A stretch of DNA of 64,000 bases from Vibrio sp. ED004 (GTDB lineage Bacteria; Pseudomonadota; Gammaproteobacteria; Enterobacterales; Vibrionaceae). Within the stretch, counting starts at the first letter, position 1; each line of letters begins with the position of its first letter. Below the pieces are notes generated by a model. The model had not been told where the DNA came from. It was given only the letters and a program-made list of their open reading frames with translations, and did not search any database. Shown here piece after piece: positions 1-63,537 of the stretch. Made by a program: the position numbers and the translations under genes. The stretch lies in NCBI RefSeq assembly GCF_023206395.1, contig NZ_CP066149.1:62001-126000 (forward strand). Direction: 5' to 3'.

Positions 1-1268
1 ATACCATTTACCTGACGATTCTCTACTGACTGTCGAGTTGTCTCTGCAAAACTTGTTGCAACTTCAGTGTGGTCTTTTCCACCTAACTCACCAGTTCTAG
101 TTTGCATTGCGACTTGAGCTTGCTTATGCGTTTCTACATCTGCATAAAGCGCCATTACAGCTTCTTTCTTAGCCATCAGGTCCGCAATACCTTTATTCTT
201 GCGCAACTTTGCAGAAGAACCACTTGCAGGCATTGCATATGCACCAACAAACCAACGAGCACCAGTGTGATCAACATAAGTACGTGGGCCAACAAGCGTT
301 GCTGCATCTTGTTTTGCTAGCCACTGTTGGACTGAAAGAGCCTTTTTAGGTTTAAGTGCCTGTTCTTGACTTGTAATAATGTCCTTTGCACCTTGTTCTA
401 GTTTTGGACTCCAAACGGTTAGAACTGCAACTTCATAACGCTCTTCTTCTGCATTCCAAGACTCAGATTGTGCAAGAATAGATGTCCCCATAAGAGGTGC
501 CTTGGCTAAAGTATCAACCATACTGGTGGCTTCTAGAGCTACAGAGCCTTTAATCGCTTCTGCCTTTGCTACGATCTCTTCATGTTCCACTTGTGCCTCT
601 TCGTAACGAGCTTTTGCTTTCTCATACTTTTTGAGCTTCTTCTCTTCAATTTCACCAGAAGAGTATGCCGCATCAAGCTTCTTAATCACTGCATCCATAA
701 AAGCTTGACCACGGTCTTCATACGTTGCCCCTTGAATGTGAGCTGCTTCAGTGGCATCTACTTCAATAAGCAATTTAGTTAATGTCTTTTGGCTGCTAGC
801 AATTTTCTTTTCTAGCTTTATAAACTTCTCATTAAGCTCAGCATGCACATCTGTACCTGGCGCACTTAGTTGATCGACCGCACTCATCTTCGTACGCATA
901 AATTCCACAACTTTAGCTTTAGCACCCATAGTCGCGAGAGTTGCAAACATAGAACGCTTGATTACAAACGCATCATCATAAGTCGGATCGTCATTATCGA
1001 AAGTTTCACTATGAACGACAAAAATACGCTTCTTATCCGCATCCCAGCCTTGTTGCCAACCTCTGGTTACCATCAAATCACGAAGTTGATCTTCCGCAGA
1101 AACATAGTTCTCTTCGGTGATTTCAATCTGTTCATAAGGTTTTTCTGTCATGTCGGCAACCGCTTCGAGTGCAGGAGTACTTTCTTGAGCGATAAAGTCA
1201 GCAGCACTTGCTGTAGGGAGCATTGCAATACCAATTACCAATGCTAACGGAGTTAAAACTTGCTTCAT
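1..1268 (-). CDS. Secreted protein of unknown function (3' end outside window)
   Basis: An open frame runs from an ATG at 1268 to the window edge, about 422 codons without a stop. The N-terminus is a typical Sec signal peptide ending in ASA-A near residue 22, so the product should be periplasmic. The middle (roughly residues 135-235) is rich in Lys, Glu and Ala in long helical stretches and may form a coiled coil. It starts one base after the stop of the upstream gene, so it is the distal member of the minus-strand envelope operon. I do not recognise the family. No catalytic motif is visible. The true C-terminus is not in the window. Confidence 0.8.
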   Translation of the reverse strand, partial: MKQVLTPLALVIGIAMLPTASAADFIAQESTPALEAVADMTEKPYEQIEITEENYVSAEDQLRDLMVTRGWQQGWDADKKRIFVVHSETFDNDDPTYDDAFVIKRSMFATLATMGAKAKVVEFMRTKMSAVDQLSAPGTDVHAELNEKFIKLEKKIASSQKTLTKLLIEVDATEAAHIQGATYEDRGQAFMDAVIKKLDAAYSSGEIEEKKLKKYEKAKARYEEAQVEHEEIVAKAEAIKGSVALEATSMVDTLAKAPLMGTSILAQSESWNAEEERYEVAVLTVWSPKLEQGAKDIITSQEQALKPKKALSVQQWLAKQDAATLVGPRTYVDHTGARWFVGAYAMPASGSSAKLRKNKGIADLMAKKEAVMALYADVETHKQAQVAMQTRTGELGGKDHTEVATSFAETTRQSVENRQVNG

Positions 1269-1269
1269 G

Positions 1270-2397
1270 TTATTCACCATTTATTTGCTTTTTCGCCCAT
1301 GACGAGAATGATTTTTGTTGGTCAATCAGCTTTAGCCAACGAATTAAATTATTCGCAATTACTGGCTCGGCATCTTTGATAGATAGATAGAGATACACCC
1401 AAGATTCTGCTGACTCAGGTTCTAGGAGGATAGATTGTGCAGTTGCAGCCTTGAACAGATCTTCTTTACCAAGAGCCCTCGCTATATCCGCCAACATTTT
1501 CCAATTTCTTGCCTGTTGGGGCGCAAGGTTGATAGCAAGCGTTAGATCCTGGATTATCTCATTGGCATTTGTTCCTGCTGAGAAATTAGCCTGCGCTTTT
1601 CGATAAAGTAGATCAGCGAGTTGAACACTCGGATTTATGTTTTCAAATTTTACCAACCCGTTATTTAATATCGCTGTTGCTATAACTTTATTAATATCAT
1701 GGGCTGAAAATGGCTTAGCACTGAGCGAACAAAAGCTTGCATTACATAGTTCAACAAGGTCGTTAGTATTTAAATTAACGGACAACACTTGGTTACCATT
1801 AATAAGTTGATAAATATCAGCTAATTTTCTTTGACCCAAACTATGCAAATACTGCTGAGTTAACACAAAATCTTTACGCTCCAGAGCCATCAAAATTAAG
1901 CTCACAGCGCTACTCTCAACTTGGTTTCGCGGAATGATCACGCCGTTAGACTTAAATTGTTCTCTATCTAAGACCACCACATACTCTTGAGTACAAGAAT
2001 CCGTTTGGCTATTGCGATCGAATAAAAGTTTATGCGTTAATGCCGTCCGAGCATTAAGTCTCATAGATACATCTTGTTTAATGTCACTCCGTAAAGGCTG
2101 CATAATTCCTTTAATCTCAGAAGAGAAAGAAACGCTTCGCACGACTACTTCTTTAGCGAGCATCGTATAAAAAGTTTTTTCAGCAGCTTTAGACTCCGCG
2201 GTACCTGCAAATTTTTTGTTAGTTAAACATTGTTGCTTTACAACGAAGAAAACCCAGTTTCCATCTTCGTAAACACCAGTCTCGTTATCTGATAACTTTG
2301 TTTGATAGGCGTCCGATGCACTTTGAGCTGCTACAGACTTAATGAACAGACAGCTACAAGCAAGAAACATCGATAACAGTTTTTTATTAGTAATCAT
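1270..2397 (-). CDS. Secreted TPR-like protein of the LPP20/CsgG-like cluster
   Basis: This 375-residue product has a signal peptide (hydrophobic stretch to about residue 24, cleavage near VAA-Q). The N-terminal half has no motif I recognise. The C-terminal third (about 265-350) has alternating helices with the alanine and leucine spacing of tetratricopeptide repeats, suggesting a protein-interaction scaffold. Four cysteines are present outside the signal peptide, which fits an oxidising periplasm. The ATG at 2397 is preceded by an AAGAGA-type ribosome site. The gene sits 20 bases after the previous one and 1 base before the next, so co-transcription is likely. The function is unknown, and I infer a role only from the cluster. 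Confidence 0.8.
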   Translation of the reverse strand: MITNKKLLSMFLACSCLFIKSVAAQSASDAYQTKLSDNETGVYEDGNWVFFVVKQQCLTNKKFAGTAESKAAEKTFYTMLAKEVVVRSVSFSSEIKGIMQPLRSDIKQDVSMRLNARTALTHKLLFDRNSQTDSCTQEYVVVLDREQFKSNGVIIPRNQVESSAVSLILMALERKDFVLTQQYLHSLGQRKLADIYQLINGNQVLSVNLNTNDLVELCNASFCSLSAKPFSAHDINKVIATAILNNGLVKFENINPSVQLADLLYRKAQANFSAGTNANEIIQDLTLAINLAPQQARNWKMLADIARALGKEDLFKAATAQSILLEPESAESWVYLYLSIKDAEPVIANNLIRWLKLIDQQKSFSSWAKKQINGE

Positions 2398-2417
2398 TTT
2401 ATCTCTTCGAACTGTGC

Positions 2418-3377
2418 TTACTTAATAACAAGCGTAGATTTAGAGGTGTCTAACAAATATCCCATGAACGGGTTATTCTCATTGAAATATTGGATAAAAT
2501 TATCAACTGCATTTGAATATGATGATTTCTTTGAGCCGCTACTGCGTCCTCCAAATGTAACCGTTTTGGACACAATCACTGGAGACCCTAACTCTACAAA
2601 CAGTTTAATTTTGTCTATACGTTGCCCATTTACTTTTGAGCCATCCGAATTAACATTGATCTTCACTGGCTCACACGAAACCAATGTATCAACCGTTATT
2701 CCTGACGATGCCAGCACTTGCTCAACCATAGGTTCAAACATTTTTCGCTCAAAAGATGAGCTCCCTTTGTAGAAGACCTTTATGCAGGATTTATTACTGT
2801 ATTGGTTGAGCTTCTTATTCAAAGATAGAAATGAGGCGTGAAATTCTTTTCCTTTACTTGAATCCTCATAAATTATCGACGCTCTCTCAGCAGCAAGAGC
2901 GATCTTTTCTTGTCCACTAAGTAGCTTAAGATAGTCTTGTAGAGTTAACTCATTTAAAACCAACTGCTTACTATATTCACTCGCGGTGATGGCTAGAGTC
3001 CGCTCATATAGTGCAATCAAGTCGTTCTTTCGAATCTTACCCATCACATAATAAACCCCATTGTATCTCTCTATATGAGGCCACATCAGCTCAGGTAAAA
3101 GCACATTATTCGCATTCGACTTACTGATCGAAGACGTTTCTAAAGTTCCTTCCAACCGAGTAGTATTGACTACTTTCGAAATAGCAAAGCTATGTGTAGA
3201 ACGAATTGAAGAGGCAATCTGGTTCTTGGCATCTAACTTAGCATTAGCCAATGAATCCCCCACGCCAATGCCAGTGAAAGTACTAGGGTCACTCGCTATA
3301 TTCAGCGTCCATGTTGGCTGAGCGCAAACGACATTTGACACTAAGAGCAATAGTAAAATAACGTATTTCATTTTCAT
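2418..3377 (-). CDS. LPP20-like secreted protein
   Basis: A 319-residue protein with a signal peptide ending VCA-Q near residue 19. Residues about 38-70 show the pattern seen in LPP20/FlgP-type proteins: a G-x-G turn, then an Ala-rich helix of the type A-x-x-D-A-x-x-x-I-A. A short segment later reads as a strand-rich domain with YYVMGKI, typical of the same fold. It has no lipobox, so it should be soluble in the periplasm. The start could be the ATG at 3377 or the second Met at 3371. The ribosome site is weak for both. It lies in the same operon as the CsgG-like lipoprotein. The family call is by motif only, and the substrate or partner is unknown. Confidence 0.75.
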   Translation of the reverse strand: MKMKYVILLLLLVSNVVCAQPTWTLNIASDPSTFTGIGVGDSLANAKLDAKNQIASSIRSTHSFAISKVVNTTRLEGTLETSSISKSNANNVLLPELMWPHIERYNGVYYVMGKIRKNDLIALYERTLAITASEYSKQLVLNELTLQDYLKLLSGQEKIALAAERASIIYEDSSKGKEFHASFLSLNKKLNQYSNKSCIKVFYKGSSSFERKMFEPMVEQVLASSGITVDTLVSCEPVKINVNSDGSKVNGQRIDKIKLFVELGSPVIVSKTVTFGGRSSGSKKSSYSNAVDNFIQYFNENNPFMGYLLDTSKSTLVIK

Positions 3378-3392
3378 CCCGTGCTAGCGTTA

Positions 3393-4925
3393 TTAACTAT
3401 TTATAATTTTAAATTCCGCGCTGCGGTTTTTAATGTTGATAGCATGTGGTCGGCGACCTTTACCTTCTATTTTGAAAGTTCGGTAAATCTCACTTAAGCT
3501 CTGTTCAAACGCTTGACTTAGCGGGCCTGAGTAACGAAAATCTAATGTCATCGTTTTTCCATTTTTATCCCAGTTCCATGTTTCTACCTGGCCACTAGTT
3601 CCGTTATTTAAGACATGTTTAAATAGATCCACATCATTGCGCTTCGCGTTTCTTAAAACTATTTTGTATACGGTGCCTTTTTCCGCATGACGAGCAAGCG
3701 ACTGAATAACCTCAATACCCATTTTCTTCTTCAATTGCTTATATGCGATATGTTCCGAAACTTGTTTTGAGCGGCTAATAGGATCTACATAGATACGACT
3801 TTTCAAGGGATCATTAATAATTGTGAATAAAACATCACCTGTGTAATTGTCTTTTAACGCGATACTGACGGATGTTTCAATGCCTTCAACACCTTTGTGA
3901 TTCTCCACTTGTTTTTGGGTTTGGGTTAAGTGGAAGCTATGGGTTGCTTTCGTTTTACCATCGTTAGTTGCAAAACCTAGTTGTTCTAATTCGTCCGTCA
4001 ACCAATCCGTTTTGAGGCTATTTTGCGATTGAATATCGAAAACAGGCTGACCGAGAATAGAAGTGTAAAAACCCACATCATTAAGTAGCTTGCCCGAGTT
4101 CACCTCCGCTTCGATGATTACGTAGTATTGACCCCTAGCAATGTCTTCGTCGAGCATTTCATAAGCACTTACATATCCTTCAGTTTTTGTCGAAATAGCT
4201 AGTGCTATAGCTTCATTAAACTTCCCAGATTTTCCTTGTAACATGACGCCTTGAGTTTGCTGCACCGCATTTTGCATAGCATTAATGAGAGCAAGCTTGC
4301 GAGCTTCTGCCTCGCCGTGCTTCATATCTGCCAAGCCTTTTGATTCAACAAATTGATTAAATAACACACTTTGAGCTACTGTTTGCGATCCTCCAGTAGA
4401 AATAACCACTGTGTTACCACCATCAGTTGCCGCTGATCCGCCTCTTAGACGACTTACTTGGTTAACATCTGTTTCAGTAATGACCATCGCTACAAAATAG
4501 TCACCATCGTAAGAACCGGATTTTAATTCTTTCACCGCTGAAAGCGTGCCTTTAAAGCGGGTGTTGACTACATCGATAAATGACTCTTCTGAAAATTCTC
4601 TCTCACCCTCACCGTCCGAAACAGTGATGTATTTCATCGAGGCCGCAGTGGTACCACTAGTAGTCACACCATTTATCATTTCATTGAGTTTGCGTAAGGC
4701 GTCTAATCGAGCTTCTTCTAATCCTTTATTTTCATTTTTCTTACCAGAAAAGCCCATTGCTACTACGTAATAACCTGTAGCCGCACTTTTCCCTGACACA
4801 GTTCCTCCTCCTATATCGAATAGATGAAAGACGTCATCCATTGGTTCAGTAAAGCTTGCTGAGCTAAACATCAGAGAAAAAGTGATCAACAAGTACTTTT
4901 GGAAAATGTTACGTAGCAACGACAT
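3393..4925 (-). CDS. Secreted two-module LPP20/FlgT-N-like protein
   Basis: The ATG at 4925 lies two bases after the preceding stop. An in-frame TTG 15 bases upstream is less likely. The 510-residue product has a hydrophobic signal segment (about 6-24). Two similar modules follow: one near 55-170 and one near 200-275, each with an Ala-rich helix starting E-A-R and a closing strand (YFVAMVITE and YYVIIEAEV). The second resembles the N-terminal domain of the flagellar protein FlgT. The C-terminal half (about 280-510) is strand-rich and I cannot name it. It probably works with the CsgG-like lipoprotein encoded just upstream. The function is unknown. Confidence 0.75.
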   Translation of the reverse strand: MSLLRNIFQKYLLITFSLMFSSASFTEPMDDVFHLFDIGGGTVSGKSAATGYYVVAMGFSGKKNENKGLEEARLDALRKLNEMINGVTTSGTTAASMKYITVSDGEGEREFSEESFIDVVNTRFKGTLSAVKELKSGSYDGDYFVAMVITETDVNQVSRLRGGSAATDGGNTVVISTGGSQTVAQSVLFNQFVESKGLADMKHGEAEARKLALINAMQNAVQQTQGVMLQGKSGKFNEAIALAISTKTEGYVSAYEMLDEDIARGQYYVIIEAEVNSGKLLNDVGFYTSILGQPVFDIQSQNSLKTDWLTDELEQLGFATNDGKTKATHSFHLTQTQKQVENHKGVEGIETSVSIALKDNYTGDVLFTIINDPLKSRIYVDPISRSKQVSEHIAYKQLKKKMGIEVIQSLARHAEKGTVYKIVLRNAKRNDVDLFKHVLNNGTSGQVETWNWDKNGKTMTLDFRYSGPLSQAFEQSLSEIYRTFKIEGKGRRPHAINIKNRSAEFKIINS

Positions 4926-4927
4926 AC

Positions 4928-5947
4928 TTATAAGGCCCAATCTTCTGGAGTCCCTACAGACACGGCATAGACTTTGTTACGCTTCAAATAATCTTTCCCC
5001 ATTGCCTCAAGCTTTTTTTGAGTATCTTCAGCATCAAGATCGCCCTCTTTCCAAATAAACATCACTCCAGAACCACTTTCTGACTTCGGGGTTACTTCAC
5101 CCGATGCGATAGGAATATCTAGGCCATCATCACTAAGGAATAAAATTACCGGTTGCTTAGTTGCGAAACCCTGGTTTATCCCTGAATCAATAGCAAAACG
5201 GCCGTTACGGTAATTGGTAACACGGCCACCCACTGGGTAGTAATCCATCGTGCGATTGACCAGTACTTGAATCGCTTTTTGAGCAGCTTCTTTGTAAGCT
5301 TCTTGGAGTTCATTCTGGTTACGAAGGTCGAAGCCTCCTAAGAATTTATCTTCCATCATAAAGAATCGCTTAGCAGGCATGTTATGACGTATTGGTTCAA
5401 ATGAATGAACAATACGACCGGTATTTGGCTCTACAACTTTTGTTGTGACTAAGCTTCTAAAAATAATCTCGTTGTGATCACTTTTCTTTTTAACAACGGT
5501 TCCCAGAGATACTGATGTTTCAAATACATAATCAGGATTCAACTGGTCACCACGAGAGATTGCCCCATTTTCTTGTGTGTTTTCGGCTTGATAAGCAACT
5601 TCATACTCACAAGAGTCACAATTTCGAGTTAAAACTTCATAGCGTTTTGTTCGAGCAAGCTCATTTTCTAAGAGCTTTGCAACAATTCCATTATCTATAC
5701 TGGTTTTCTCTGCGTCTTTCTCAAATCGAATATGATCTACGTAAGCAGCAATTGACATTTTAGTGAATGCTTTAACGTCATAATTACTCGGTAATTCTAT
5801 ATTATTGCTATCAAACAACGCTTCACGATTAACCTTATTGATTTTTGAATTCGCACTTATATCCGCTTCAGAGTTAATTTTTAAAGCCGTAGATTGGCAT
5901 CCAAACAGAAAGATCGCTGCACAAAGCAGACTAATAGTTTTTTTCAT
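4928..5947 (-). CDS. CsgG/LpoB-like outer-membrane lipoprotein
   Basis: I place the start at the ATG at 5947, not the longer frame beginning at 5983, because MKK followed by a hydrophobic run and the lipobox FLFG-C (Cys at about 17) then forms a proper lipoprotein signal. The mature 320-residue protein has the layout of CsgG/LpoB-like proteins: an early strand with a helix around 65-95 (L-L-E-N-E-L-A-R-T-K-R-Y-E-V-L), then a long strand-rich region that binds or forms a complex at the outer membrane. Two cysteines in a C-D-S-C pair may form a disulphide. It is 2 bases from the next gene, which argues for translational coupling. It could be a pore (CsgG) or an enzyme activator (LpoB). The sequence does not decide. 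Confidence 0.7.
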   Translation of the reverse strand: MKKTISLLCAAIFLFGCQSTALKINSEADISANSKINKVNREALFDSNNIELPSNYDVKAFTKMSIAAYVDHIRFEKDAEKTSIDNGIVAKLLENELARTKRYEVLTRNCDSCEYEVAYQAENTQENGAISRGDQLNPDYVFETSVSLGTVVKKKSDHNEIIFRSLVTTKVVEPNTGRIVHSFEPIRHNMPAKRFFMMEDKFLGGFDLRNQNELQEAYKEAAQKAIQVLVNRTMDYYPVGGRVTNYRNGRFAIDSGINQGFATKQPVILFLSDDGLDIPIASGEVTPKSESGSGVMFIWKEGDLDAEDTQKKLEAMGKDYLKRNKVYAVSVGTPEDWAL

Positions 5948-5991
5948 ATTCTTATAATTCAGGTATTTCGTTACTGGAGACAAGATTAAAT

Positions 5992-6015
5992 AAAAGCCAG
6001 TCGAAACTGGCTTTT
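5992..6015 (-). terminator. Rho-independent terminator after the small lipoprotein gene
   Basis: Perfect 9-bp arms (AAAAGCCAG and CTGGCTTTT) with a 6-base loop. On the minus strand the hairpin is followed by a T-rich run. It separates the lipoprotein gene ending at 6023 from the CsgG-like gene starting at 5947, so read-through or a second promoter is needed for the remaining cluster. Confidence 0.8.
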
Positions 6016-6022
6016 AGGGGAA

Positions 6023-6634
6023 TTATTCAGCTGAGTTGAATGCTGATATAATTTTGTAGTTTTGATATGCAGAAACGATTGTAGAGTCCAAGTAATCAAC
6101 CTGTTCGATAGTAGTTTCAATCAAATCTGTTTCGGCCATCAATTGACTGAACTCAACCCCAGAGATCATAGAAGTTGTATCAAGAGCAAGGAAGTGGCTA
6201 GCATTCGAAAGAGCAACGGTTGCAGCTTCACCTAGGCCAGACATCATTTCATCAGCAATTGATGATTCCATGAAATTGTCTACAGTTTCTTTTTGTTCAG
6301 GTGTTAGCGCTTCATAAATCGCCAGCTTTTCTTCTTCTGTTTCAGCAGCTTCTGTTGCAGCGAAGTAATTACCTAGCTCAGGTGTGCTTAGAAGTTCGTC
6401 AGTGTAGCGCTCGTAAACTGGCTTAGCTGCAAGAAATGCCGTGTTCACACTAAAACGCGCAACTTCTAGCTCTTGTACTGTAGATGGCTGGTAGCCTTCT
6501 GTATTTGAGACTGCGTAAAGCTCAGCACCTTCATTGCGAAGGTCTTCGTAAGAAACCGCTTCTTGACCACCGATCATTGAACAACCAGAAACCATAGAAG
6601 TTGCAAATACCATTGCTAGTAAAGTTTTTTTCAT
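6023..6634 (-). CDS. Small acidic lipoprotein of unknown function
   Basis: The ATG at 6634 has an AAGG element about ten bases upstream. A TTG two codons earlier is not needed. The 203-residue product has a clear lipobox, VSG-C near residue 18. The mature part is helical and strongly acidic with many Glu and Ala residues and ends with a helix-rich region. No catalytic motif is visible. It is followed by its own terminator and precedes the CsgG/LPP20-like genes on the same strand. I do not recognise the family. Its position suggests an accessory role in the same envelope system. Confidence 0.75.
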   Translation of the reverse strand: MKKTLLAMVFATSMVSGCSMIGGQEAVSYEDLRNEGAELYAVSNTEGYQPSTVQELEVARFSVNTAFLAAKPVYERYTDELLSTPELGNYFAATEAAETEEEKLAIYEALTPEQKETVDNFMESSIADEMMSGLGEAATVALSNASHFLALDTTSMISGVEFSQLMAETDLIETTIEQVDYLDSTIVSAYQNYKIISAFNSAE

Positions 6635-6890
6635 TTTCAAATGCCTTAATTAACTCATATCCATATGATTTGAATAGCACCCCTAACTTGTATAGTACGA
6701 TATATTGTATGAGAGGTATGATATACCATTTAAAAACAATGCGCAAGAAGAAACTTGTTTAACGACTAATTAATCTGTATTTATCGTATTAGTCCCATAG
6801 CTCTAAATTTACAAGTTAAACACCCAATACTAGTGAGTTAACTCATAACTTGTAGGCCCCCTAATTGAAATTTCCACATTAGAAAAAAGA

Positions 6891-6945: not shown

Positions 6946-7947
6946 TTAATCACCTTTCAACATATCTAAGAATATCTGTCTCGATTCAGGTGTGTTGTCC
7001 CTGTGAGTTTCGTATTTTATATGTGTCTCTGCATCGGCAGACTGAGACAACTTGATGCTCCAAAGCGCGTTGAGTTGGTTCGGTACAATTGAATATCGGA
7101 CATCGATAATACGCAGCTCGTCTGTTGGGTTCTGAGCAATATAACCATTCGAGAACCAGCGGAAACGTTCAATGTCTTTGGCTTGTTGTGAATTAGGATC
7201 AAGCCAAGGGAAATCCTGACTCACGTTCAGTTTAGCAATTGAATCCCCCGGATAGGTTTTAACGGAGGTGCCGACTCGAACAGCATCTACGTAGTATCGA
7301 GATTCTGTTTCGTACACTACTTTCCACACTAAGATATTCGCGAAGCTCGGCTTTGTCTCTAATCGGATCGGCGTGTGTTGTCTTTCTTGCGCTAATTGCC
7401 AGCCAACCGCCTCTGCTCTGTCTCGCTGAATCATCCCTAGCGTTGGGTAAATCAAAGCCCACAGAAACGCAATACGTGCCAACCAAGGCACTCGTTTCAA
7501 CGTTGCAAACACAAGTAAAATTAGGATGGGAAGCGTATAAACAGGATCGATGATTGATATGGTATTCCAAGCAAAACGCGCGTTGGTCAAAGGCCAAAGT
7601 AACTGCGTGCCATAAGTGGTACAAGCGTCCAACAGTGCATGAGTGCCATAACCCAGTGCACAAAACAGCCAGCTTTGTTTGAAAGAAAGCCCACGCCTTT
7701 TTGCAATCAGGTGATGCAGAACCAAGGCACAGATCAAACTGCCAATGGGGATAAAGAAGAGTGAATGGGTAAATTGTCGATGGAACTCCAAGGCTAGCAA
7801 AGGGTCACTCTGAGACTTGATCAGTGCATCTAAATCTGGAGCCAACCCGGAGAGCAGCCCTAATACCCCAGCAACAACCAAATGTTGTTTTTTGCTCGCC
7901 GATTGTGACAAAGAAGCGCCTAACACGCCCTGCGTTAAAGGATCCAT
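6946..7947 (-). CDS. YdjM-like membrane-bound metal-dependent hydrolase
   Basis: A 333-residue inner-membrane protein of the YdjM (PF04307) type. The N-terminus reads MDPLTQGVLGA, the family signature, followed by an Asp pair in SGLAPDLDAL and the H-R-Q-F-T-H-S motif around residues 56-62, which supply the putative metal ligands. At least four hydrophobic segments follow, then a C-terminal soluble domain of about 140 residues. E. coli YdjM is SOS-induced, but I found no LexA-type CTGT-N8-ACAG box in the short region before this gene. The upstream side is occupied by a group II intron, so native promoter sequences may have been displaced. Substrate unknown. Confidence 0.85.
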   Translation of the reverse strand: MDPLTQGVLGASLSQSASKKQHLVVAGVLGLLSGLAPDLDALIKSQSDPLLALEFHRQFTHSLFFIPIGSLICALVLHHLIAKRRGLSFKQSWLFCALGYGTHALLDACTTYGTQLLWPLTNARFAWNTISIIDPVYTLPILILLVFATLKRVPWLARIAFLWALIYPTLGMIQRDRAEAVGWQLAQERQHTPIRLETKPSFANILVWKVVYETESRYYVDAVRVGTSVKTYPGDSIAKLNVSQDFPWLDPNSQQAKDIERFRWFSNGYIAQNPTDELRIIDVRYSIVPNQLNALWSIKLSQSADAETHIKYETHRDNTPESRQIFLDMLKGD

Positions 7948-8078
7948 AAATCACTCACTTTTAGCATTCCCTTGAATTGAACAAGTACATTTAGCTATAG
8001 CAGTGAATCCAGTTAAACAACAAGATTTTGTCAACATACTCATAGACATAATCGTATAAATGTAGACTGGCAAACATC

Positions 8079-8146
8079 GAGTAGGGTGAGGCGTTACCGC
8101 CTCATCCCTCTCACAGAACCGTACGTACGGACCTCGTATACGGCTC
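8079..8146 (-). ncRNA. Catalytic domains V and VI of intron copy 1
   Basis: Domain V (8116-8146 read on the minus strand) folds as an 8-bp lower stem starting GAGCC, which contains the AGC catalytic triad, a CG bulge on the 3' side, and a 4-bp upper stem with a 5-base loop. Domain VI follows as a GAGGCG/CGCCTC hairpin ending in the AT 3' terminus. Identical sequences occur in copies 2 and 3. Confidence 0.85.
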
Positions 8147-9428
8147 ATGCACACTTCCATTCAGCATATTGGCTGAACACATGCCCTGTCCTTATTGTTC
8201 CAAGATTTACCAACCCTTGGTCATTAAACCATTGATTTGGCATCGCATAGCTTGATAGGGGACTCGCTGCACTGACCCAACTTGTCATTGAGATATGTTG
8301 GAACGGCGGCTTATACCCTAACTGTTTTAACCTTCGGTGTAACCGTTGAGGCTTCTTCCAAAGTTTCAACTGGATACTACGAAGTCTTCTTCGTAGCCAC
8401 CCTGCTAACCTTGAGAACTCTCTGCTGCTATTGGTGATCCTGAAGTATTGACTGAACCCTCTTAACACTGGGTTTAAAGCTTTTATGACTTGCTCAAGTG
8501 GCTTACCGCACCCTCGCTTTGTCAGTCGCTTTAACTTACTTTTGAACCCTTTCAGTTTCTTAGTTTGAATGCGGGTAAATTGACTCCCGATTTCTACACC
8601 TAAGAACTTCACGCCATCACGGCTGTGCGCTATATGTGATTTCGTCTGATTCACTGTGAGTTTAAGCTCTCCTTCTAGGATCTTCGTCGCTTGTGCAAGG
8701 GCATTCTCTGCTCCTGCCTTGCTACGACAAAAGATGAGTATGTCATCCGCATAACGAACGAGCCTATGGTCACGCTTTCGCATTTCCTGATCGAACGCAT
8801 CAAGGTAGATATTGGCAATCAAAGGACTGATAACACCACCTTGTGGACTTCCTAGCTCTGTCTCCTGCCAACTACCGTCTATCATCACGCCACTTTTTTC
8901 AGAAACTGTTTTATCAGCTCTAACACGCTGCTATCTGTGACTCGCCTTCTGATGCTTTGAGGATCAACTCATGGTCGAGTTTGTCAAAGCACTTCGACAA
9001 GTCCATATCTACGACGTGCTGTAATCCGTATCGGCGGATAAACATCGTGGATTTGTTGATTGCATCGTGACAACTTCGATTCGGTCTATACCCAAAACTT
9101 GATGGGTGAAATTGCTCTTCGAAGATGGGGGTGAGGATATCATTGAGTGCTTGTTGGACAACTCTGTCCCTAACGGTTGGGATCCCAAGCAATCGTACCC
9201 CTCCGTCTTCTTTGGGTATCTCTACTCGTTTGACTGGCTGAGGTTTGTATTGCTTGGTTTTGAGTTCAGAGAGGAGTTGATCGAGGTTATCACTCAGATT
9301 TTCGGCGTAGTCGCTCAGGCTCTGCTCATCTATTCCAGCCGCGCCTTTCGCTTTCTTTACCTTTTAAACCCTTTATACAGCCTCTCTTTGTTGAGCAGAT
9401 GACCATATAAACTGTAATAAACTCGCAC
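8145..9428 (-). pseudogene. ltrA: Intron-encoded reverse transcriptase/maturase, frameshifted
   Basis: It would start with GTG at 9428 behind an AAGGAG site and stop with TGA at 8145, the last bases being the first of domain V. RT motifs are visible: the [16 protein letters not shown] block, [17 protein letters not shown] and RYADD. A maturase (X) domain follows and no HNH endonuclease, as in class C ORFs. Compared with copy 2 it has two extra T near 8895, one missing C near 8955 and one missing T near 9364. It keeps the correct frame at sites where copies 2 and 3 are shifted. Corrected for these indels the frame is about 427 residues. Confidence 0.85.
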
Positions 9429-10160
9429 TTTCTCTCCTTGGGTTGTGTGCTGTGTGGGGACAAGTGTTTCATGTCCAGTGTGGGTGTTATTTCTCTCTGC
9501 TATTCAGCCTTCTAGCTCAATGGCAATTTACTGAAGTGTGTCAGAGTTACTCCCCTATACGGTTTCTTAGCTCAGTATCTTGCTTCCACAATCAACCAAA
9601 CTAGGAATACCCCGATAGCGATTCGGTTTGGGTATCACTGAAAAAAAAAACATCTGTTCATCACAGACTTAAAGTGTACTTCCTCCCTTCGCAGCACTGA
9701 GTGCTTTTGGCATTTCAGTGCTCCATCAACTTGATGCTGATGGTCAGCTAAGTTTTCTCCTCCACACCATTACTGGGCTTCTCAGGCTTAGCCTTACTCA
9801 CTACTACGGATTCATCTGCCACCTCGCACCAACACAGCTCTTAGCTTTCGCTTCGAGTTTGTGCTTCCAGACTTTTGGATGTGGTGTCAGGCTTCCCCAG
9901 TTACTGCACTGGCTCCTGTTAACAATGCCACCTCAAGCACAGCATAGGTCTGACTGAGTATAGGGCTTCGCGCTATTTCGGACGCTTACCCACCTATACT
10001 GCCGAAGCAGGTTTACTTGCGTTGTGTACTGTTAACTTCCTATCGCTTCAGACCCTGCCGTTAGCCAGCAACGCCCTTGCGATTCGGATTATCTTCCCCT
10101 CAGTCGGGGTGATTCAGGTTTCTTTCAACCTAACGGGTTTGCCAGCTTCGCTGGGCAAAC

Positions 10161-10190
10161 AAAAAAGAGCAGCCTGATGACTGCTCCTAT
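10161..10190 (-). terminator. Terminator used as intron target
   Basis: GAGCAG/CTGCTC arms with an 8-base loop followed on the minus strand by six T. It terminates the gene starting at 10607. The intron begins at the very next base. Confidence 0.85.
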
Positions 10191-10214
10191 TAGGTTCTCA
10201 TTACTCGTATCTGA

Positions 10215-10607
10215 TCAACGTGATTGCGTCGTCTTACTCAGCAATAGCTCCCAATCAGATAGCTCAACCTGCCCTTTGCGTATATTCACCTTGTGGTAAC
10301 CTTTTTCGGTTAAGGATTTCACTTCAATAAAAGAATGACCAAACAAAGACTTTCTAACCGTTAGATTCGCCTTAATACCATGCAAATACACGTTTCCATC
10401 GTCTAAAGACAAATTGCTTTTCGTGAGCCTTGAGGCAAACATGTAAACCAAAGTCATGAGGGTAATTGAGGTGATGAAAGGAAAAAGCTGAAATTCAGTT
10501 TGATAAAAGAAACTGATCATCAGAGATACGATCGTGTAGGTTATCGTCATTGATAAAACAACGTTCCAATGTGTGCTGTTGTTCTTAAATGAGATTTCTC
10601 GTGCCAT
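10215..10607 (-). CDS. Small two-TM membrane protein with PH-like tail
   Basis: The ATG at 10607 has a near-perfect AAAGGAG site 8 bases upstream, better than the upstream in-frame ATG at 10640. The 130-residue product has two hydrophobic segments (about 13-33 and 40-60) and a strand-rich C-terminus that ends with K-x-x-Y-H-K-V-N-I-R-K-G-Q followed by a S-D-W-E motif. The same architecture and end motif occur in the protein at 15271-15663, so they are likely distant paralogs. Function unknown. Confidence 0.75.
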   Translation of the reverse strand: MAREISFKNNSTHWNVVLSMTITYTIVSLMISFFYQTEFQLFPFITSITLMTLVYMFASRLTKSNLSLDDGNVYLHGIKANLTVRKSLFGHSFIEVKSLTEKGYHKVNIRKGQVELSDWELLLSKTTQSR

Positions 10608-10730
10608 CACTCGCTCCTTTAGGTAAGTATTTGACCACATTTGAACATTTATAAAACGTGAACAATCTTATTATGAGCCATGATGCATTAAAAGGCGTAA
10701 ATACGGCGATTGATAGACTCAGATCGCAAC

Positions 10731-10768
10731 TAGACATTTACATGCGTTTTCTCGCACCTAAATGTCTA
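10731..10768. repeat. Perfect 10-bp inverted repeat between two minus-strand genes
   Basis: TAGACATTTA and its complement flank an 18-base interior that can itself pair (TGCG/CGCA), giving a long hairpin. It lies downstream of the TauE gene on the minus strand but lacks a T-run, so it may be a weak terminator, an mRNA 3' stabiliser or an operator. Confidence 0.6.
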
Positions 10769-10815
10769 ATTGATAAAGAAACTGAACCAGTTACAGGCCA
10801 GAGGGCGGTCTTTAA

Positions 10816-61448: not shown

Positions 61449-63537
61449 ATCGAGTAGGGTGAGGCGTTACCGCCTCATCCCTCTCACAGAACCGTACGTA
61501 CGGACCTCGTATACGGCTCATGCACACTTCCATTCAGCATATTGGCTGAACACATGCCCTGTCCTTATTGTTCCAAGATTTACCAACCCTTGGTCATTAA
61601 ACCATTGATTTGGCATCGCATAGCTTGATAGGGGGACTCGCTGCACTGACCCAACTTGTCATTGAGATATGTTGGAACGGCGGCTTATACCTAACTGTTT
61701 TAACCTTCGGTGTAACCGTTGAGGCTTCTTCCAAAGTTTCAACTGGATACTACGAAGTCTTCTTCGTAGCCACCCTGCTAACCTTGAGAACTCTCTGCTG
61801 CTATTGGTGATCCTGAAGTATTGACTGAACCCTCTTAACACTGGGTTTAAAGCTTTTATGACTTGCTCAAGTGGCTTACCGCACCTCGCTTTGTCAGTCG
61901 CTTTAACTTACTTTTGAACCCTTTCAGTTTCTTAGTTTGAATGCGGGTAAATTGACTCCCGATTTCTACACCTAAGAACTTCACGCCATCACGGCTGTGC
62001 GCTATATGTGATTTCGTCTGATTCACTGTGAGTTTAAGCTCTCCTTCTAGGATCTTCGTCGCTTGTGCAAGGGCATTCTCTGCTCCTGCCTTGCTACGAC
62101 AAAGATGAGTATGTCATCCGCATAACGAACGAGCCTATGGTCACGCTTTCGCATTTCCTGATCGAACGCATCAAGGTAGATATTGGCAATCAAAGGACTG
62201 ATAACACCACCTTGTGGACTTCCTAGCTCTGTCTCCTGCCAACTACCGTCTATCATCACGCCACTTTTCAGAAACTGTTTTATCAGCTCTAACACGCTGC
62301 TATCTGTGACTCGCCTTCTGATGCTCTTGAGGATCAACTCATGGTCGAGTTTGTCAAAGCACTTCGACAAGTCCATATCTACGACGTGCTGTAATCCGTA
62401 TCGGCGGATAAACATCGTGGATTTGTTGATTGCATCGTGACAACTTCGATTCGGTCTATACCCAAAACTTGATGGGTGAAATTGCTCTTCGAAGATGGGG
62501 GTGAGGATATCATTGAGTGCTTGTTGGACAACTCTGTCCCTAACGGTTGGGATCCCAAGCAATCGTACCCCTCCGTCTTCTTTGGGTATCTCTACTCGTT
62601 TGACTGGCTGAGGTTTGTATTGCTTGGTTTTGAGTTCAGAGAGGAGTTGATCGAGGTTATCACTCAGATTTTTCGGCGTAGTCGCTCAGGCTCTGCTCAT
62701 CTATTCCAGCCGCGCCTTTCGCTTTCTTTACCTTTTTAAACCCTTTATACAGCCTCTCTTTGTTGAGCAGATGACCATATAAACTGTAATAAACTCGCAC
62801 TTTCTCTCCTTGGGTTGTGTGCTGTGTGGGGACAAGTGTTTCATGTCCAGTGTGGGTGTTATTTCTCTCTGCTATTCAGCCTTCTAGCTCAATGGCAATT
62901 TACTGAAGTGTGTCAGAGTTACTCCCCTATACGGTTTCTTAGCTCAGTATCTTGCTTCCACAATCAACCAAACTAGGAATACCCCGATAGCGATTCGGTT
63001 TGGGTATCACTGAAAAAAAAAACATCTGTTCATCACAGACTTAAAGTGTACTTCCTCCCTTCGCAGCACTGAGTGCTTTTGGCATTTCAGTGCTCCATCA
63101 GACTTGATGCTGATGGTCAGCTAAGTTTTCTCCTCCACACCATTACTGGGCTTCTCGGGCTTAGCCTTACTCACTACTACGGATTCATCTGCCACCTCGC
63201 ACCAACACAGCTCTTAGCTTTCGCTTCGAGTTTGTGCTTCCAGACTTTGGATGTGGTGTCAGGCTTCCCAGTTACTGCACTGGCTCCCTGTTAACAATGC
63301 CACCCTCAAGCACAGCATAGGTCTGACTGAGTATAGGGCTTCGCGCTATTTCGGACGCTTACCCACCTATACTGCCGAAGCAGGTTTACTTGCGTTGTGT
63401 ACTGTTAACTTCCTATCGCTTCCTTCAGACCCTGCCGTTAGCCAGCAACGCCCTTGCGATTCGGATTATCTTCCCCTCAGTCGGGGTGATTCAGGTTTCT
63501 TTCAACCTAACGGGTTTGCCAGCTTCGCTGGGCAAAC
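61449..63537 (-). mobile_element. Group II intron, copy 2 (degenerate ORF)
   Basis: A 2089-bp copy with the same ends as copy 1 (5' GTTTGCCCAGC at 63537, 3' CTACTCGAT at 61449). It starts directly at the 3' end of copy 3. Nucleotide identity to copy 1 is very high; the differences I saw are mostly single-base homopolymer indels, two substitution-type changes and a 4-base duplication near 63420. The maturase frame is broken. The 3' exon begins G as in copies 1 and 3. It lies 33 bases past the nitroreductase stop, on the opposite strand. Confidence 0.9.
61518..62800 (-). pseudogene. ltrA: Intron-encoded reverse transcriptase/maturase, frameshifted
   Basis: GTG start at 62800, stop position 61518. 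It keeps frame through the central RT block (including the L-K-S-I-R-R-R-V region broken in copy 1) but has an extra T near 62670, a missing A near 62100, a missing C near 61886, a missing C near 61690 and an extra G near 61630. The net length is one base short of an intact frame of 1284 bases. At each shifted site another copy has the in-frame version. Confidence 0.85.

Follow-up and report, generated by a model that had tools for sequence, protein, structure and literature searches.

An operon of predicted exported proteins in a variable segment

The left end of a 64,000-nucleotide stretch of Vibrio sp. ED004 (bases 62001 to 126000 of the 3.86-Mb contig NZ_CP066149.1, in a genome of two contigs and 5.83 Mb; termed the window herein) carries part of an operon of genes for predicted exported proteins, which we call g1 to g8. 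A first-pass annotation made from the letters alone had described six consecutive minus-strand genes at positions 1 to 6640, and all six were found as open reading frames (ORFs), each with a signal-peptide-like N-terminal stretch in its translation. The likely ATG starts lie at 6634 (g1), 5947 (g2), 4925 (g3), 3377 (g4), 2397 (g5), and 1268 (g6), and the gaps measured with these starts are 2 (g2-g3), 15 (g3-g4), 20 (g4-g5), and 1 (g5-g6) bases, within the 1 to 20 bases given earlier for the last five genes. The neighboring DNA to the left of the window adds two genes of the same orientation, g7 and g8, and the complete operon is therefore g1 to g8 (Table 1). The single operon proposed for the six genes is supported by the linkage kept among homologues and needs amendment in three respects: the left edge of the window falls within g6 (full length, 531 codons from the first ATG), g7 and g8 were missed, and a hairpin separates g1 from g2.

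The operon is the sole gene content of a 9128-bp segment that is absent from the same site in a related Vibrio (L082), where only 4 bases separate the counterparts of L002:5749 and L002:14878, and where the two flanking genes (L002:4275-5747 and window 6946-7947, which we take to encode an M32-type carboxypeptidase and a YdjM-like membrane hydrolase) abut. The G+C content of the segment (39.9%) is lower than that of the flanking genes (46.7% and 46.2%) and of the whole window (43.3%). Among six related Vibrio genomes compared at this site, one showed such a clean empty site; in the other five, the available DNA showed no right flank next to the peptidase gene, so that other changes have occurred at this site. 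In our reading, the segment is an accessory block that comes and goes as a whole. Farther to the right, window 8068-10804 is also absent at the same site in L082 and contains broken reverse transcriptase ORFs (8145-8888 and 8920-9192), presumably of the group II intron type; a second, similar reverse-transcriptase-like ORF lies at 62047-62562.

Table 1. Genes and other features of the operon region (window positions; negative numbers lie left of the window)
Feature	Position	Strand	Description
g1	6023..6634	-	Small acidic lipoprotein, 203 aa from ATG, lipobox VSGC; first operon gene
Terminator-type hairpin between g1 and g2	5991..6016	-	Stem-loop followed by T run
g2	4928..5947	-	Lipoprotein, 339 aa; CsgG/PelC/TolB-N-type domain and C-terminal domain, possibly FlgT-C-like
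g3	3393..4925	-	Secreted; two LPP20/FlgT-N-type modules and C-terminal part
g4	2418..3377	-	Secreted LPP20-type protein
g5	1270..2397	-	Secreted; C-terminal half possibly TPR-like
g6	1..1268, continuing to about -315	-	Two domains with LPP20/SHS2-type element order, the first with long coiled-coil insert
g7	L002:7021-7632, about -979 to -368, outside window		LPP20 lipoprotein
g8	L002:5858-7009, about -2142 to -991, outside window		MltC-like transglycosylase
9128-bp variable segment, right part in window	1..6877 (whole: about -2251 to 6877)		Absent at same site in L082

Gene order and distribution of two operon types

Gene order was compared in loci picked by their g2 gene. Of 29 such loci, 28 were counted, 14 of them close relatives (type A) and 14 distant ones with 20 to 26% identity (type B, with genes labeled b1 to b8); L129 was excluded because it has a g2-like gene without the operon, the incomplete loci L010 and L011 and the duplicates L014-L017, L027, and L028 were left out, and some of the 28 are close relatives of each other (e.g., L004-L006 from Aliivibrio). 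Type B operons were found at all nine of the 22 distant Vibrionaceae copies that were fetched and at a plasmid-borne Pseudoalteromonas copy. In profile comparisons with signal peptides removed, five of the eight families matched between the two types (g2, 99.5%; g3, 98.5%; g4, 98.5%; g7, 94.4%; g8, 100%), each of them best with its own counterpart, the next highest pair being g7-b4 with 42.3%. No match to the type B counterparts was obtained in this comparison for g1, g5, and g6. A g1-b1 match of 94.9% dropped to 1.1% once signal peptides were cut, and an apparent b1-b7 relation was rejected as an artefact of iterative searching, since direct BLAST of both seeds showed nothing convincing.

The orthologues proved to be linked rather than scattered, and the gene cluster is therefore not a chance arrangement. 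g3/b3 adjoins g2/b2 in all 28 loci, g7/b7 is present in 24 and g8/b8 in 22 (with one opposite-strand case each, in L128 and L127), and g5 and g6 go together throughout, 20 loci having both and 8 neither. The type A loci that lack g8 number four (L007, L008, L013, and L123), and none of them has g4 or g7 in the available flanking DNA. In several relatives, g4 is placed after g8. To us, these gene contents suggest an arrangement in which g1-g2-g3 form the core and g5+g6 and g4+g7+g8 are optional modules. Contig sizes gave a crude hint of linkage as well, with 25 of 69 sizes of g6-bearing contigs recurring among 89 distinct sizes of g2-bearing ones.

Several loci showed individual features. A 470-amino-acid exported protein replaces g5 and g6 in L122. 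L025 and L029 are compact type B loci without b5 and b6; they lie beside an MscS-type channel gene (PF00924, 2e-9 in L029) and a gene for a 242-amino-acid protein with a hydrophobic N terminus, of which a 258-amino-acid look-alike is found beside the L127 operon. In L012 (Photobacterium chitinilyticum), g1 is present twice, and g2 is only 46% identical, whereas g3 and g6 are 64% and 57% identical, a possible exchange of g2 within the operon.

Among 296 Vibrionaceae genomes, the g2 profile found at least 8 close and 22 distant copies, one per genome. A combined profile found g2/b2 in at least 14 of 394 order genomes and in at least 2 of 369 class genomes (own genome included). The type A profile raised the class count to at least 3 of 369 and gave a g2-like match in G723 (3.8e-6) that the combined profile did not recover. 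These searches scored only the best 5 to 7 candidates per genome, so that the counts are lower bounds. The names of several carriers (Aliivibrio, Photobacterium, Endozoicomonas, Spongorhabdus, Pelagibaculum spongiae, Vibrio ichthyoenteri, and V. scophthalmi) may hint at animal-associated or marine hosts.

Domains of the operon proteins

Structural statements on g2 rest on a predicted model and on fold matches by Foldseek. The best matches of the model were FlgT and CsgG, with CsgG and PelC folds ranking high, and g2 residues 62-238 aligned to CsgG 47-247 (163 residues aligned); the core of the g2 model has the CsgG fold. By count, about 38 CsgG residues have no counterpart in this alignment; we take them to include the membrane hairpins, which the count suggests are missing from g2, and a curli-type pore is therefore not indicated. 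Judged by the model, the earlier label "CsgG-like" is valid for the core fold of g2 only and is not supported as a family name. g2 also differs from CsgG and PelC in its extra C-terminal domain. The g2 profile had no matches among PDB sequences, and one homologue, 99% identical, is labeled Vibrio lentus, to which the host is thus probably closely related.

Further likely relatives of ring proteins are g3, g4, g6, and g7. LPP20/FlgT-N-like modules had been proposed for two proteins of the window, and the proposal holds by profile comparison but not by Pfam cut-offs. In Pfam, g3 gave subthreshold matches to FlgT_N (E = 0.0053; 17.7 of 28.8 bits) and LPP20 (E = 0.14; 13 bits). By hhalign, its second module matched FlgT-N at 96.9% and its first module matched the second at 90.8% and FlgP at 79.2%; as a yardstick, the known relatives FlgT-N and FlgP gave 64.3% in the same test. 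The Pfam LPP20 match of g4 (E = 0.0019; 19 bits) was under the 25.9-bit cut-off, and g4 matched g7 at 76.9%. Only g7, outside the window, is an LPP20 member by Pfam (PF02169; 1.6e-7; 32.1 bits, above the same cut-off); a match between g7 and FlgP was not upheld at 15% once the signal peptide was cut. None of the operon proteins combines FlgT_N and FlgT_C above the Pfam cut-offs in one protein.

The model of g6 comprises two domains with an LPP20-like order of elements and a weak match to Lpp20, and its first domain has a long coiled-coil insert. FlgP, Lpp20, and FlgT share an SHS2-like fold, and ring formation accompanies an insertion between helix and second strand (PMC12222027). Both modules of the g6 model have inserts at this position, which are helical and not beta-hairpins. 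Two aBAK chains found with g6 among PDB sequences (E = 3.9 and 9.6) were judged chance coiled-coil matches, and FTT1539c (PDB 4qvr), a protein of unknown function with 12% identity, is not among the sequence-profile matches of g6 at E ≤ 10. For g5, Pfam gave a weak TPR match (E = 0.021); its N-terminal half has an LPP20-like pattern as read from the translation, and none of the other families matched its profile at ≥15% by hhalign. A role in anti-phage defence was rejected, as the eight proteins had no meaningful PADLOC match (a weak hit of g4 to LmuC had E = 0.0087).

g8 is an exported MltC-like lytic transglycosylase with an SLT domain (8.2e-25). Its E232, which we take to be the catalytic residue by comparison with MltC, is invariant in 17 of 17 aligned sequences. 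The likeness to MltC extends to the conserved glutamate motif and a subthreshold Mltc_N match, whereas the NCBIfam MltC equivalog (NF008670) gave 180.4 bits over residues 80-376 against a cut-off of 375, and no lipobox was recognized. Another MltC-like copy in the genome (C1:1266728-1267231) is 45% identical over residues 200-369. Of three genomes without an operon g8, two carry nothing closer than more distant MltC-like genes at other places, and in one none was found. Since g8/b8 is linked in most loci and the others do without it, the transglycosylase is, judged from these gene contents, a usual but not indispensable partner.

The presence of an MltC-like enzyme within the operon speaks for a reading in which the locus regulates peptidoglycan metabolism, with g2 an LpoB-like activator of penicillin-binding proteins, g8 the matching hydrolase, and the LPP20-type proteins adaptors. 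g2 had in fact been called LpoB-like, and LpoB (TIGR02722) is its best NCBIfam match (E = 1.7e-4, residues 14-191). The score, 21.7 bits, is far below the equivalog cut-off of 110.55, however, so that the database name LpoB is not borne out for this g2 by the curated cut-off and does not stand as a family name. Of 92 g2 homologues, 18 are named LpoB or penicillin-binding protein activator, and one (P0033) has a precomputed PF13036 domain, presumably the LpoB family; g2 itself has no match to PF13036, FlgT_C, or FlgT_M in Pfam at E ≤ 1. LpoB does not appear among the Foldseek rows listed for the g2 model, which by itself need not mean a different fold. g2 has a whole additional C-terminal domain and operon partners different from those of LpoB, and g8 is missing in 6 of the 28 loci. 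We consider the regulator unlikely, and the "penicillin-binding protein activator LpoB" entries in marine bacteria may be misnamed.

g1, a small lipoprotein, has no family above cut-off in Pfam or NCBIfam, and its orthologues lie directly upstream of g2. Of 13 type A loci, 11 have a terminator-type hairpin with a T run in the g1-g2 gap. Its stem sequence differs among them, and in each of these 11 its score was reached by none of 200 mononucleotide shuffles. By this definition, L007 (hairpin without T run) and L013 (none found) have no such hairpin. The g6-g7 gap, a control of similar length, showed nothing notable in six of six loci, and g7-g8 junctions gave hits in three of eight, with 84, 7, and 3 of 200 shuffles equally good (these gaps are short, and the 95 bases scanned extend into g8). 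In type B operons, b2 and the end of the preceding gene are no more than a few bases apart. Because the structure is conserved while its sequence changes, the comparison suggests a kept attenuator, and g1 is therefore probably made in excess of the rest of the operon.

An excess of g1 would also suit a secretion or surface-polymer system, in which g2 serves as a CsgG- or PelC-like channel or collar for an exported product, either g1 itself or an unlinked one. The high rank of the CsgG and PelC folds points the same way. Besides the unmatched CsgG residues, it is opposed by the lipobox of g1, kept in 9 of the 10 copies listed, and by the operon genes, among which no CsgA/B/E/F-like gene was recognized (no genome-wide csg search was made). 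We regard secretion as quite unlikely.

A candidate ring or disk without a flagellum

The canonical flgO-flgP-flgT trio of the genome sits on C1 at about 2.719 to 2.721 Mb and the operon at about 0.06 Mb, a distance of 2.65 Mb along the contig (about 1.2 Mb in the opposite direction should the contig be circular). The operon does not adjoin the trio and is therefore not the flagellar set, as the first-pass annotation had supposed from the genes nearby. Weak FlgT_N-like matches in 298-amino-acid frames were seen at G000:C1:1112120-1112248 (E = 0.065) and G000:C2:1043429-1043593 (E = 0.26). The operon shares with FlgO/FlgP/FlgT, known from the Vibrio H/T ring and the Campylobacter basal disk, the FlgT-N/FlgP (SHS2-like) modules of g3 and the match of the g2 model to FlgT; it differs in spreading its domains over more proteins, in its usual transglycosylase, and in its patchy distribution.

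These relations, in a genome that has flgT, flgO, and flgP, could mean an accessory of the polar flagellum, for instance an additional piece of a disk or sheath, whose genes happen to lie away from the flagellar ones. The Helicobacter Lpp20 operon, presumably located outside the flagellar genes, also speaks for this. Its Lpp20 (HP1456) and HP1454 are LPP20-type exported proteins of one operon that interact with FlgP, although the bacitracin resistance of an hp1456 mutant was that of the wild type; the accessible part of the report mentions no transglycosylase or CsgG-type lipoprotein (PMC11756786). FlgT is common in the order (67 of 119 genomes), however, whereas g2/b2 is patchy, and none of the loci was seen to have flagellar genes as neighbors, although no systematic search for them was made. 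A flagellar accessory thus seems very unlikely to us.

Since the parts of the operon resemble builders of outer membrane rings and disks and a wall-cutting enzyme accompanies them in most versions, we favor a stand-alone ring or disk complex at the outer membrane and in the periplasm, that is, the kit of the flagellar FlgP/FlgT ring and basal disk without a flagellum, a reading on which our confidence is evenly balanced. The separate outer membrane assembly system suggested earlier gains from the FlgT/LPP20- and CsgG-type parts and the linked orthologues, and the assembly itself is what we infer. In such a complex, the lipoproteins g1, g2, and g7 would be located at the periplasmic side of the outer membrane; a lipobox is found in all three in both operon types, with Asp at +2 in none of the pattern-recognized copies. 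g2, possibly of the FlgT middle and C-terminal type, and the LPP20-type proteins g3, g4, g6, and g7 would contact one another and oligomerize into stacked or concentric rings. g5 and g6, the latter with its long helical arms, may form a scaffold that some versions do without, and g8 would make room for the assembly in or across the wall by opening or trimming peptidoglycan. The terminator between g1 and g2 would provide an excess of g1, which could be an abundant subunit or the cargo placed by the complex.

No published description of such an operon was found in the literature searched, outside which most subscription papers lie; the building blocks are known, and their combination is new as far as could be seen. 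More tentatively, and with clearly less confidence, the operon may encode a self-contained, mobile, motor-less "basal disk" with its own wall-cutting enzyme and an abundant lipoprotein subunit. Such a machine would have evolved alongside the flagellar FlgP/FlgT rings or be older than they are, and would build an envelope structure that has so far gone unseen.

What is known of the FlgP/FlgT/Lpp20 type of disk and ring proteins comes mainly from flagellar motors. Here, several of their relatives are joined with a transglycosylase in a conserved operon that lies apart from the flagellar set and exists in two very diverged versions, which suggests that the ring kit leads an existence of its own. 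If so, it would bear on the origin of the flagellar disks and would offer a compact gene set for motor-free ring assembly and wall opening.

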